This document shows, piece after piece, positions 8,099-47,000 of a stretch of DNA of 64,000 bases. The translations under genes and the position numbers were made by a program. The notes below the pieces were generated by a model that was given only the letters and a program-made list of their open reading frames with translations, was not told the DNA's origin and did no database searches. The stretch is from Salvelinus alpinus (taxonomy: Eukaryota; Chordata; Actinopteri; Salmoniformes; Salmonidae). Positions within the stretch are counted from its first letter, which is position 1. Each line of letters starts with the position of its first letter. Location: assembly GCF_045679555.1 (NCBI RefSeq), contig NC_092096.1, positions 24,356,555 through 24,420,554 on the forward strand. Direction: 5' to 3'.

Positions 8099-11000
8099 CT
8101 GGGGGAGAAACAAGTACACAACCAATGAGTTACTAATACTTGGAAAGATGTGTGCTTTTATATATAAAGAGGATCCATAACCGGTACATCTAGGGAGGAG
8201 ACATAGAGTTAAAGTCGGAAGTTTACATACACCTTAGCCAAATACATTTAAACTCAGTTTTTCACAATTCCTGACATTTAATCCTAGTACAAATTCCCTG
8301 TCTTAGGTCAGTTAGAATCAGCACTTCATTTTAAGAATGTGAAATGTCAGAATAATAGTAGAGAGAATGATTTATTTCAGCTTTTATTTATTTCAAAACA
8401 TTCCCAGTGGGTCAGAAGTTTACATACACTCAATTAGTATTTGGTAGCATTGCCTTTAAATTGTTTAACTTGGGTCAAACGTTTCGGGTAGCCTTCCACA
8501 AGCTTCCCACAATAAGTTGGGTGAATTTTGGCCCATTCCTCCGGACAGAGCTGGTGTAACTGAGTCAGGTTTGTAGGCCTCCTTGCTCGCACACACTTTT
8601 TCAGTTCTGCCCACATATTTTCTATAGGATTGAGGTCATGGCTTTGTGATGGCCACTCCAATACCATGACTTTGTTATCCTTAAGCCATTTTGCCACAAC
8701 TTTGGAAGTATGCTTGGGGTCATTGTCCATTTGGAAGACCCATTTGCGACCAAGCTTTAACTTCCTGACTGATGTCTTGAGATGCTGCTTCAATATATCC
8801 ACATAATATACCTTCCTCGTGACGCCATCTATTTTGTGAAATGCACCAGTCCCTCCTGCAGCAAAGCACCCCCACAACATGATGCTGCCACCCCCGAGCT
8901 TCATGGTTGGGATGGTGCTCTTCGGCTTCCAAGCCCCCCCCTTTTTCCTCCAAACGTAACGATGGTCATTATGGCCAAACAGTTCTGTTTTTGTTTCATC
9001 AGACCAGAGGACATTTCTCCAAAAAGTACGATATTTGTCCCCGTGTGCAGTTGCAAACCATAGTCTGGCCTTTTTATGGCGGTTTTGGAGCAGTGGCTTC
9101 TTCCTTGCTGAGCGGCCTTTCAGGTTATGTCGATATAGGACTTGTTTTACTGTGGATATAGATACTTTTGTACCTGTTTCCTCCAGCATCTTCACAAGGT
9201 CCTTTGCTGTTGTTCTGGGATTGAATTGCACTTTTCACATCTCTAGGAGACAGAACGCGTCTCCTTCCTGAGTGGTATGACGGCTGCGGGATCCCATGGT
9301 GTTTACACTTGCGTACTATTGTTTGTACAAATGAACGTGGTACCTTCAGGCGTTTGGAAATTGCTCCCAAGGATGAACCAGACTTCTGGAGGCCAACACC
9401 TTTTTTCTGAGGTCTTGGCTGATTTCTTTTGATTTTCCCATGATGTCAAGCAAAGAGGCTCTGAGTTTGAAGGTAGGCCTTGAAATACATCCACAGGTAC
9501 ACCTCCAATTGACTCAAATGATGTCAATTAGCCAAACAGAAGCTTCTAAAGCCATGACATAATTTTCTGGAATTGTCCAAGCTTTTTAAAGGCACAGTCA
9601 ACTTCTATGTAAACTTCTGACCCACTGGAATTATGATACAGTAAATTATAAGTGAAATAATCTGTCTGTAAACAATTGTTGGAAAAATTACTTGTGTCAT
9701 GCACAAAGTAGATGTCCTACCCGACTTGCCAAAACAATAGTTTGTTAACAAGAAATCTGTGGAGTGGTTGAAAAACAAGTTTTAATGACTCCAACCTAAG
9801 TGTTTGTAAACTTCCAACTTCAACTGTAGATTATCACACATCTAGAACAAGAGAATCACACTACAAAGTATTGAGGGAACAGAGAGAAAGAGATTGATGA
9901 CGAGCCAACACAGTTCTATGAGGTAGAGGGAGGTATCAGAACCAGTCCCAATAAGTGTCATGACAAAATGTCCACCTGCTAAAGAGAGAGACATGAAGAA
10001 AGGCAGAGACAGATACAGAGAGGGAGCCAGTCATTGGTGAAAAGGAGAGCAGATTGAGCTAGGGTTAGTCACCTTTCAGCATGTCCAGGTTGTGTCCCAG
10101 AGAGGAGATTGAGCTAGGGTAAGTCACCTTTCAGCATGTCCAGGTTGTGTCCCAGAGAGGAGATTGAGCTAGGGTAAGTCACCTTTCAGCATGTCCAGGT
10201 TGTGTCCCAGAGAGGAGATTGAGCTAGGGTAAGTCACCTTTCAGCATGTCCAGGTTGTGTCCCAGAGAGGAGATTGAGCTAGGGTAAGTCACCTTTCAGC
10301 ATGTCCAGGTTGTGTCCCAGAGAGGAGATTGAGCTAGGGTAAGTCACCTTTCAGCATGTCCAGGTTGTGTCCCAGAGAGGAGATTGAGCTAGGGTAAGTC
10401 ACCTTTCAGCATGTCCAGGTTGTGTCCCAGAGAGGAGATTGAGCTAGGGTAAGTCACCTTTCAGCATGTCCAGGTTGTGTCCCAGAGAGGAGATTGAGCT
10501 AGGGTAAGTCACCTTTCAGCATGTCCAGGTTGTGTCCCAGAGAGGAGATTGAGCTAGGGTAAGTCACCTTTCAGCATGTCCAGGTTGTGTCCCAGAGAGG
10601 AGACATCCAGGGGCTCCACGGTGGTGTCGAAGCCCAGGTCTGAACACCCGGCTGGCCCTGCTGTCTCTGAGAAGGCCCCTGCTGAGCTGGGAAACGACAG
10701 GCCAGAACTAGCACGGGAGTCATCAGAGCTGATACCAGGGGGGAGAGACAGAGAGAGGGTAAGGGAAAGAGAAAATCATGGGAAGAGAGAGAGACAGAGA
10801 GAGAGACAGAGAGAGGGAAAGGGAGAGAGAGAGAGAGACAGACAGAAATAGACAGGGAAAGACAGAGAGAGAGACAGGGGAAGAAACAGAGAGAGAGACA
10901 GGGGAAGACACAGAGAGAGACAGAGGAAGAAGAGGAAGAAGAGAGAGAGAATTCGAAAACAAATCCAATTTTGATAAACTCCCATATCTACTGGGTGAAA

Positions 11001-44000: not shown

Positions 44001-47000
44001 AGCGCCAGTCTACTAGCCCGGCTGGCCAGCGCCAGTCTACTAGCCTGGCTGGCCAGCGCCAGTCTACTAGCCCGGCTGACCAGCGCCAGTCTACTAGCTC
44101 CAGTCTACTAGCCCGGCTGGCCAGTGCCCAAAATCCTTAAGTTCCATCAGTGATAACCATCTCATACATCCAACCTGCCTTCTCCTCTACTGTGACTTTC
44201 TCCTGGTCCAGGCCAGTCAGGTGTTGAAGGAGGAAGATCACTGCCAGTCTATAGTCCAGTTGCTCCTGGGGTTGAAACGACAGTGAAAGAAGCAGCATTT
44301 TCATGGACATGTCTATTGTCAGTACAGAGGAAGCAGACAGCATTAGGGAGCTAACTTGTTAGTTTAGTGATGTGTTCTGGGTGTAGGTGCAGTGCAGCTA
44401 CCTGGACTAGGTTTCTCTGCAGATTCAGCTCTCGGAGCAGGCTCAGGTCATGGATGTGTGTGGCCTCCTTGATTTCACTGATCTGAGAACAGTATATCAT
44501 ACACAAAAAAGATCAGATGCTTGGATTAAGAATAAATCCTTTAAAAACAATTAAAACTACATTTAATACCACAGCCAATCTATCAGTTGATGCAGTGGAA
44601 TAGCTTTACCACTCAGCTCCTGGTATACAGTCGCTAGGTGGTTTAGTGATACTGGCCATTGGTACCATGCAGACAGTGGCAGAGACAAGAGCAGGACATT
44701 AAGGAATGGACTGTGTCTCACCAGGTTCCTCTCCAAGTTGACAAGAGAGCAGGACATTAAGGAATGGACTGTGTCTCACCAGGTTCCTCTCCAGGTTAAC
44801 AAGAGAGCAGGACATTAAGGAATGGACTGTGTCTCACCAGGTTCCTCTCCAGGTTAACAAGAGAGCAGGACATTAAGGAATGGACTGTGTCTCACCAGGT
44901 TCCTCTCCAAGTTGACAAGAGAGCAGGACATTAAGGAATGGACTGTGTCTCACCAGGTTCCTCTCCAGGTTAACAAGAGAGCAGGACATTAAGGAATGGA
45001 CTGTGTCTCACCAGGTTCCTCTCCAAGTTGACAAGAGAGCAGGACATTAAGGAATGGACTGTGTCTCACCAGGTTCCTCTCCAGGTTAACAAGAGAGCAG
45101 GACATTAAGAAATGGACTGTGTCTCACCAGGTTCCTCTCCAAGTTGACAAGAGAGCAGGACATTAAGAAATGGACTGTGTCTCACCAGGTTCCTCTCCAA
45201 GTTGACAAGAGAGCAGGACATTAAGAAATGGACTGTGTCTCACCAGGTTCCTCTCCAGGTTGACAAGAGAGCAGGACATTAAGAAATGGACTGTGTCTCA
45301 CCAGGTTCCTCTCCAGGTTGACAAGAGAGCAGGACATTAAGGAATGGACTGTGTCTCACCAGGTTCCTCTCCAAGTTGACAAGAGAGCAGGACATTAAGA
45401 AATGGACTGTGTCTCACCAGGTTCCTCTCCAGGTTAACAAGAGAGCAGGACATTAAGAAATGGACTGTGTATCACCAGGTTCCTCTCCAAGTTGACAAGA
45501 GAGCAGGACATTAAGGAATGGACTGTGTCTCACCAGGTTACTCTCCAGGTTAACAAGAGAGCAGGACATTAAGGAATGGACTGTGTCTCACCAGGTTCCT
45601 CTCCAGGTTAACAAGAGAGCAGGACATTAAGGAATGGACTGTGTCTCACCAGGTTCCTCTCCAGGTTAACAAGAGAGCAGGACATTAAGGAATGGACTGT
45701 GTCTCACCAGGTTCCTCTCCAGGTTAACAAGAGAGCAGGACATTAAGAAATGGACTGTGTCTCACCAGGTTCCTCTCCAGGTTGACAAGAGAGCAGGACA
45801 TTAAGAAATGGACTGTGTCTCACCAGGTTCCTCTCCAAGTTGACAAGAGAGCAGGACATTAATGAATGGACTGTGTCTCACCAGGTTCCTCTCCAGGTTG
45901 ATGGAGCCCAGCAGATGGAGATTCTGCAGGCCTGACAGACTGGTGATCCGGTTCAGAGACAGATCCAGGACCTGCAGGGTTCTCAGAGTCTCCACATTCT
46001 CTATCTTCTCAATCTGATTCCCCCTCTGGATAGAGAGGACGTGATACATGACAAACACTGGGAATATGAATACCGTGTGGACAAATACACACACACATAT
46101 TAATGAACTCATATAAGCTCACACGCACGCACACACAACTCTCCCTCCTCCCACACACACACATACCCATGTCACACGCACACACACACACAGACACATA
46201 CACACCCCACCCTCACTATCAAAGTTAACATTGAGTGTTCCCTTCCCCATCTGTAAAGAGTATAAAACTTCTCCCTGAGACATGTATATGATTGACAGGC
46301 CAGCTCCAATGGTCTGGGCTGACAGGTGAGGAGTGACAGGTGAACAGCTGGCCAGACACTGGTGTGGGCATGCCAAAAGCACTACAGACCAGCCCTCCTC
46401 TCCTCTAGAACCCACCATCCCTCCTGCTCTATAACTACCCATCCCCACCCCACCTTCCCCCTGCGTGGGCTGTCATTTATGATCCAGCCCCCGCGGCCCC
46501 CATGCCCTGCCCTCCTCCACTAGCCTTTCTGGCAGAGGGCTGCCGACAGCGGGGGACGGTGACCGCGCGGAGCCCTGGAAGCTCTCGAGGCCAGGGTGTG
46601 ATGGGCTGAGAGAGGAGGCTGGCTGACAGGTAGCACGCTGTTAGGGAGCGGGGCAGGAGAGGGCCGAGAGGGAAGGGGGAGGGGAGATGGAGACAGCGGC
46701 TGGGATGCTATGGAGGGGTGAGGGAATGAGAGAGGAGGGGGGGGTGTTGAACAGGGTCCAGGCCTGCTCACACCGCCGGCAGCTGGTCCCAGAGGGGAGG
46801 GTGGAAGCGGACAGGGGACACGGCTACATCATGCTGACGATGAGGAATCACTTTGATAAAGGACACCAGCATCCGTCAGAGAGGGAGAGGGAAGGGTCTG
46901 GAGGCCCGCTGGCACAGCCATATGGTGGCTCTCACACTGGAGCCCATGTCTGTGTGTCTTTGAAAAGCTGAAGCTCAATTATGTCTGTGGTTTAAATATG

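Follow-up and report, generated by a model that had tools for sequence, protein, structure and literature searches.

Why would minisatellites within a single gene carry copies of that gene's own splice junctions? The question is raised by lrguk in a window of 64,000 nt from Salvelinus alpinus (NC_092096.1, positions 24,356,555-24,420,554, C11:24356555-24420554 in our numbering of a 2.37-Gb assembly; positions below are those of the window unless a contig is named). The gene lies on the minus strand, and each of four arrays detected by Tandem Repeats Finder (TRF) covers one of its junctions: the exon 7 donor, the exon 10 acceptor, the exon 17 acceptor, and the exon 19 donor. Both intron ends are represented, with donor arrays at exons 7 and 19 and acceptor arrays at exons 10 and 17. 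We believe that these arrays are probably mirage-type minisatellites, founded by the tandem duplication of a junction-spanning segment, most likely through slippage or unequal exchange at short direct repeats. They would since have undergone ordinary minisatellite turnover, tolerated because the exon-proximal copy keeps the exon edge together with its splice site. The arrays are as follows.

44688..45901, minus strand: exon 7 array, 58 bp x 20.9 (TRF); the unit contains 20 nt of the exon 7 end, the GTGAGA donor, and intron 7.
30125..41106, minus strand: exon 10 array, 51-52 bp x 213 (TRF); the unit contains the intron 9 end, the CAG acceptor, and 16 nt of exon 10.
15698..16608, minus strand: exon 17 array, 62-68 bp (TRF 66 bp; the range is the spacing between anchors) x 14; the unit contains the intron 16 end, the TAG acceptor, and 22 nt of exon 17.
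10045..10603, minus strand: exon 19 array, 55 bp x 10.2 (TRF); the unit contains 36 nt of the exon 19 end, the GTGACT donor, and 19 nt of intron 19.

The joined exon translations match the guanylate kinase and leucine-rich repeat families, and the top solved-structure match is an LRGUK chain (9ijj_4P, E 9e-158). This chain aligns with the hand-joined translation without gaps over the exon 7/8, 9/10, and 16/17 joins, so the exon 7 donor and the exon 10 and 17 acceptors look rightly placed. Exon 19 is outside the alignment, and its edges rest on an open frame and splice sites (donor AAAG/GTGACT, with the slash at the junction). We note that some exon edges were placed by eye, and that a possible exon near 15263-15346 was omitted. 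The exons that adjoin the arrays are listed below.

45882..46024, minus strand: exon 7, donor at the low-coordinate end; open frame, splice sites, and LRGUK alignment.
30034..30140, minus strand: exon 10, acceptor at the high-coordinate end; LRGUK alignment across exons 9/10.
15595..15719, minus strand: exon 17 (3' end provisional), acceptor at the high-coordinate end; LRGUK alignment across exons 16/17.
10568..10731, minus strand: exon 19, donor at the low-coordinate end; open frame and splice sites.

The 11-kb array sits in intron 9, and this intron appears by eye to start with GC and not GT (AAG/GCAGGT, window 44173-44178, minus strand), if exon 9 joins exon 10 as in the LRGUK alignment.

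A sequence-only reading of this DNA had described the units as lrguk's own splice junctions and had itself named mis-called exon edges as one of the things that would refute this. Reading the arrays copy by copy, we found the units to be exon edge (16-36 nt) plus intron at all four junctions, and the gapless alignment at three of the four joins speaks against mis-called edges. Such arrays are hard to assemble, and a second, inverted copy of the gene, described below, might be a haplotype placed wrongly in the assembly. Nevertheless, both gene copies have three of the four arrays, with differing copy numbers. We therefore consider it highly improbable that the edges are wrong, that the repeats are merely junction-like, or that the arrays are assembly artefacts.

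The shared geometry with an intact splice site, also claimed in that reading, is confirmed in the window. Among copies covering the site, the donor GT is kept in 21/21 copies at exon 7 (one of which reads GTGATA) and 10/10 at exon 19, AG/GT is kept in all 213 copies at exon 10, and AG is kept in all 14 at exon 17. Most other unit positions are equally constant among copies, so the intact dinucleotides are no sign of selection, and we dropped their constancy as an argument for function. The reading had further counted the extension of the arrays "always into the intron" as part of the geometry that pointed to a common process, but it is no evidence of a directed one. Tandem copying of an exon-intron segment gives exon edge and intron in alternation, and the site that preserves the frame defines the exon end; the direction thus follows by definition.

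The (near-)identity of the array splice sites to the real ones could suggest decoy junctions that regulate lrguk splicing or transcript level. Later donors at exons 7 and 19 would indeed have consequences. In the exon frame, read-through of the first donor at exon 19 runs into a stop inside the first unit; at exon 7, a stop is met in the second unit, the first spare donor shifts the frame, and later ones include the stop. If protein is made, the exon-proximal site must therefore dominate. On the other hand, copy number swings widely between near-identical lrguk copies, down to one at exon 19, and besides the lack of special constancy in the window, AG is lost in two of the 18 exon 17 units of the second gene copy (16/18 keep it). 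A regulatory role of the arrays is very unlikely.

The second lrguk copy was found by a search of the same genome. It lies on the opposite strand of the same contig at C11:24165001-24225000 (L029-L034), together with the 3' end of exoc4, and its region was taken as loci L029-L036. The distance between corresponding exons of the two copies ranges from 0.17 Mb (exon 14) to 0.23 Mb (exon 3). Where unique segments could be aligned, we counted 18 substitutions over 13,118 bases (~0.14%) between the exoc4 side and exon 11, and 181 over 14,527 bases (~1.2%) past exon 11; 3 of the 20 segments had no match, one was aligned over 855 of its 2,395 bases, and a stray 82-bp match was excluded from the sums. 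A recent inverted duplication could account for the second copy, as could a misplaced haplotype, and the two may accordingly be paralogues or alleles. Copy number differs between them at all four junctions, with 17 units in the second copy versus 21 in the window at exon 7, 49 versus 213 at exon 10, 18 versus 14 at exon 17, and 1 versus 10 at exon 19.

The exon 19 pair hints at a mechanism. In the single-copy version, the 9-bp direct repeat TCTCCTCTC occurs once in the exon and once in the intron, at a distance of 55 bp, which is exactly the unit length. This arrangement suggests that short repeats on either side of the junction underwent slippage or unequal exchange, and such an event between the two 9-mers would yield exactly the 55-bp array. 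At exon 17, the exon and the outer intron flank both carry CATCCAC. We infer from the sequence that each array would have been seeded by tandem duplication of a segment spanning a splice junction, most likely when a short direct repeat in the exon edge and its partner in the intron took part in replication slippage or unequal exchange. The array would thereafter expand and contract like any minisatellite. The copy adjoining the exon body would retain exon edge and splice site together, so that normal mRNA could still be spliced from it, and the remaining copies would sit in the intron as spare, unused junctions. Junction-spanning arrays elsewhere in this genome and in other animals, described below, count in favour of this origin, as do the differences in copy number between the two lrguk copies.

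Three points weigh against this origin. Direct repeats of 7-9 bp are found at only two of the four lrguk units, and the exon 7 and exon 10 units show few matching bases at the join. The single-copy exon 19 could also be a collapsed array, as collapse leaves an identical sequence; the direction of change at exon 19 could thus be either array birth or collapse. Finally, the share of lrguk arrays at junctions exceeds that under random seeding, and duplication between short repeats can account for this surplus only by luck and by the way in which the finding was chosen.

This last point raises a second possibility, that splice junctions are preferred seeds for tandem duplication compared with other intron positions, owing to co-transcriptional R-loops, a paused polymerase, or purine/pyrimidine tracts at exon edges. 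Within lrguk, ten minisatellites were hand-picked from the TRF rows and compared with random seeding over 38 junctions in the collapsed gene. Four of the ten span a junction, while 0.38-0.78 are expected (P 0.0003-0.005 across the settings of margin and condition). Adding back three simple-sequence arrays (10743-10950, 15007-15169, and 20921-21154) gives 4 of 13 versus 0.68 expected (P 0.003). It was the pattern that led to the choice of lrguk, so the P values come out too low and cannot stand alone.

An independent sample was drawn from other genes of the same genome, consisting of 79 exon-centred loci with guanylate kinase and tyrosine phosphatase exons. Dropping four duplicates (L025, L040, L042, and L066) left 75 loci with 150 junctions; gene pairs from the whole-genome duplication were kept separate, and L100 lies inside L064, so some intron was counted twice. 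Exon edges were set by a simple splice-site score, or by the edge of the match where the score failed, and 13 of the 79 matches held stops by the script's reading. Arrays with a period below 25, a TRF score below 120, or mostly two letters were excluded from the counts, and the L041 unit was fixed at 91 bp by hand. Four independent junction-spanning arrays were found outside lrguk.

L041/L042: acceptor array, ~44 nt of exon in the unit.
L097: acceptor array, 67-bp unit with ~34 nt of exon.
L106: donor array, 103-bp unit with ~68 nt of exon.
L039/L040: donor array, 77-bp unit with only 9 nt of exon.

The L106 unit carries about half of its phosphatase exon, a possible step toward exon duplication. 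L039 (13.89 Mb) and L040 (14.06 Mb) form another inverted pair on C11, separated by 0.17 Mb and with 98.8% identity across 3,360 bases, each with the 77-bp array at a phosphatase donor; L041 (4.67 Mb) and L042 (4.79 Mb) are a same-strand pair on C11. Three further candidates were rejected: the 38-bp array of L052 begins 18 nt beyond the point where the exon is predicted to stop, and those of L099 and L091 are near an acceptor, in each case without spanning the junction.

Under a null based on array density (22 non-spanning arrays), 1.4-1.6 junction arrays are expected among the 150 junctions versus the four seen (P 0.053-0.075). The 35 long loci contribute 2 versus 0.75-0.84 expected (P 0.17-0.21) and the 40 short loci 2 versus 0.27-0.33 (P 0.03-0.04); without L039, with its 9 nt of exon, the whole sample gives P 0.17-0.21. 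Shuffling arrays within loci gives 3.7 expected (P 0.55, and P 0.43-0.69 over 24 settings). We set this second null aside as the main test, as collapsed short loci leave little room outside junctions, and gave more weight to the density null. The density null is fairer to short loci and in-locus shuffling is stricter; a firm excess is given by neither.

A genome-wide test used the donor word MAGGTRAGT, on the premise that under random seeding the entry of a word into tandem arrays is proportional to its single occurrences, with the reversed word as control. Single occurrences number 89,285 for the donor word and 109,589 for its reversal. As triple tandems, the donor word and its reversal were counted 6,886 versus 3,668 times at gaps 16-35, 8,067 versus 6,158 at gaps 36-65, and 6,879 versus 4,395 at gaps 66-95, corresponding to normalised excesses of 2.30, 1.61, and 1.92 (the three gap classes have some arrays in common). 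Two other words, assessed at gaps 36-65 only, gave ratios of 1.09 (TGMARGATG, tandem 5,525 versus 2,645, singles 88,716 versus 46,344) and 0.91 (MAGGCRAGT, tandem 371 versus 399, singles 29,716 versus 29,139). These counts weigh long arrays many times, the ratios carry no error bar, and arrays may simply be denser in genes; the number of tandem matches per single match spans 0.012 to 0.062 across the five words used for comparison, with 0.090 for the donor word. The donor-word result is a hint that points to a modest excess.

Taken together, the claim of the sequence-only reading that the four arrays reflect a common process, splice-junction-seeded amplification, keeps the weak excess under the density null and the donor-word ratios of 1.6-2.3, and loses it under in-locus shuffling. 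A junction-specific process by preferential seeding is possible, and we regard it as clearly less probable than not. In that case, minisatellites would be born at junctions about two to three times as often as at random positions in introns, by a duplication step linked to transcription or sequence, and hundreds of genes might carry large, fast-changing stacks of copied splice sites; this extension is equally tentative. A true genome-wide excess would link transcription or splicing to the birth of repeats.

Minisatellites are dense across the window. Large ones outside lrguk are at 1-6134 (55 bp), 52464-56115 (50 bp), and 58498-59685 (27 bp). The first contains donor-like and acceptor-like words, and we set it aside as a junction array: a three-frame reading of 600 bp at its far end in the second lrguk copy (the last units and beyond) revealed no obvious coding exon. 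Open frames resembling Tc1/mariner transposases, and one reverse transcriptase, were recognized by eye at 8437-9234, 17657-18724, 23815-24753, 41392-42225, and 56275-58221.

The observation is sound and striking in scale, although the kind of structure is known. With up to 213 near-identical, intact junctions beside a working exon, the lrguk arrays are a natural setting in which to test how the spliceosome selects one of them. The exon 19 pair, with 1 versus 10 copies and the 9-bp repeat visible, is useful as a before-and-after view of the birth or collapse of a minisatellite. Junction arrays may also supply material from which new introns arise, a proposal made in the paper on amphioxus globins (PMC3087553).

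How do these arrays compare with known systems? The sequence-only reading knew of no named class, but judging from their sequence the lrguk arrays belong to a kind of repeat already described. Tandem repeats across exon-intron boundaries were named mirages in amphioxus Adh3, and the globin paper adds further cases, length differences between haplotypes, and a model of intron gain (PMC3087553); a passage in a second paper refers to mirages in globin, Adh, and TnC and compares repeats of PGBD5 with these (PMC3902484). Mirages are described as lying at 5' or 3' intron boundaries and as leaving regular mRNA splicing undisturbed, and somatic instability is reported at amphioxus Adh3. Like the mirages of amphioxus (Adh3, the globins BflGb6 and BflGb9, and TnC), lrguk units span the exon-intron boundary at both intron ends, many copies keep the AG/GT signals, and several cases occur in one genome. 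Copy number varies between haplotypes in amphioxus and between the two gene copies, alleles or paralogues, in lrguk. Unlike the amphioxus cases in these passages, lrguk is a fish gene with four arrays and up to 213 copies, whereas the BflGb6 haplotypes have 6 and 3 units, and it has a single-copy version with a bounding direct repeat.

Two vertebrate genes share this layout. The human CBS variable number tandem repeat (VNTR) of 31 bp, c.1444_1467+7(16_21) (PMC2630376), is listed as exon 13-intron 13 (PMC1395315). By its name, the unit would contain 24 nt of the coding end and 7 nt of intron and would thus span the donor as in lrguk, with 16-21 polymorphic copies (PMC2630376). Unlike lrguk, CBS has one array in one gene with a shorter unit, and a cited title and a table tie its VNTR to enzyme activity and homocysteine level. 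No survey of junction-spanning arrays in fish was noticed in open-licence literature listings; a case in another salmonid gene comes from rainbow trout irak3, where the first 15-17 nt of exon 5 are reported as repeated four times directly upstream of that exon (PMC6763605). By our own reading, an intron 4 unit listed there starts with 15 nt that could be the exon edge, and its end is a T-rich stretch followed by CTAG. In contrast to lrguk, irak3 has 4-5 copies, which the relevant passage mentions in passing, without a mechanism or a name (PMC6763605).

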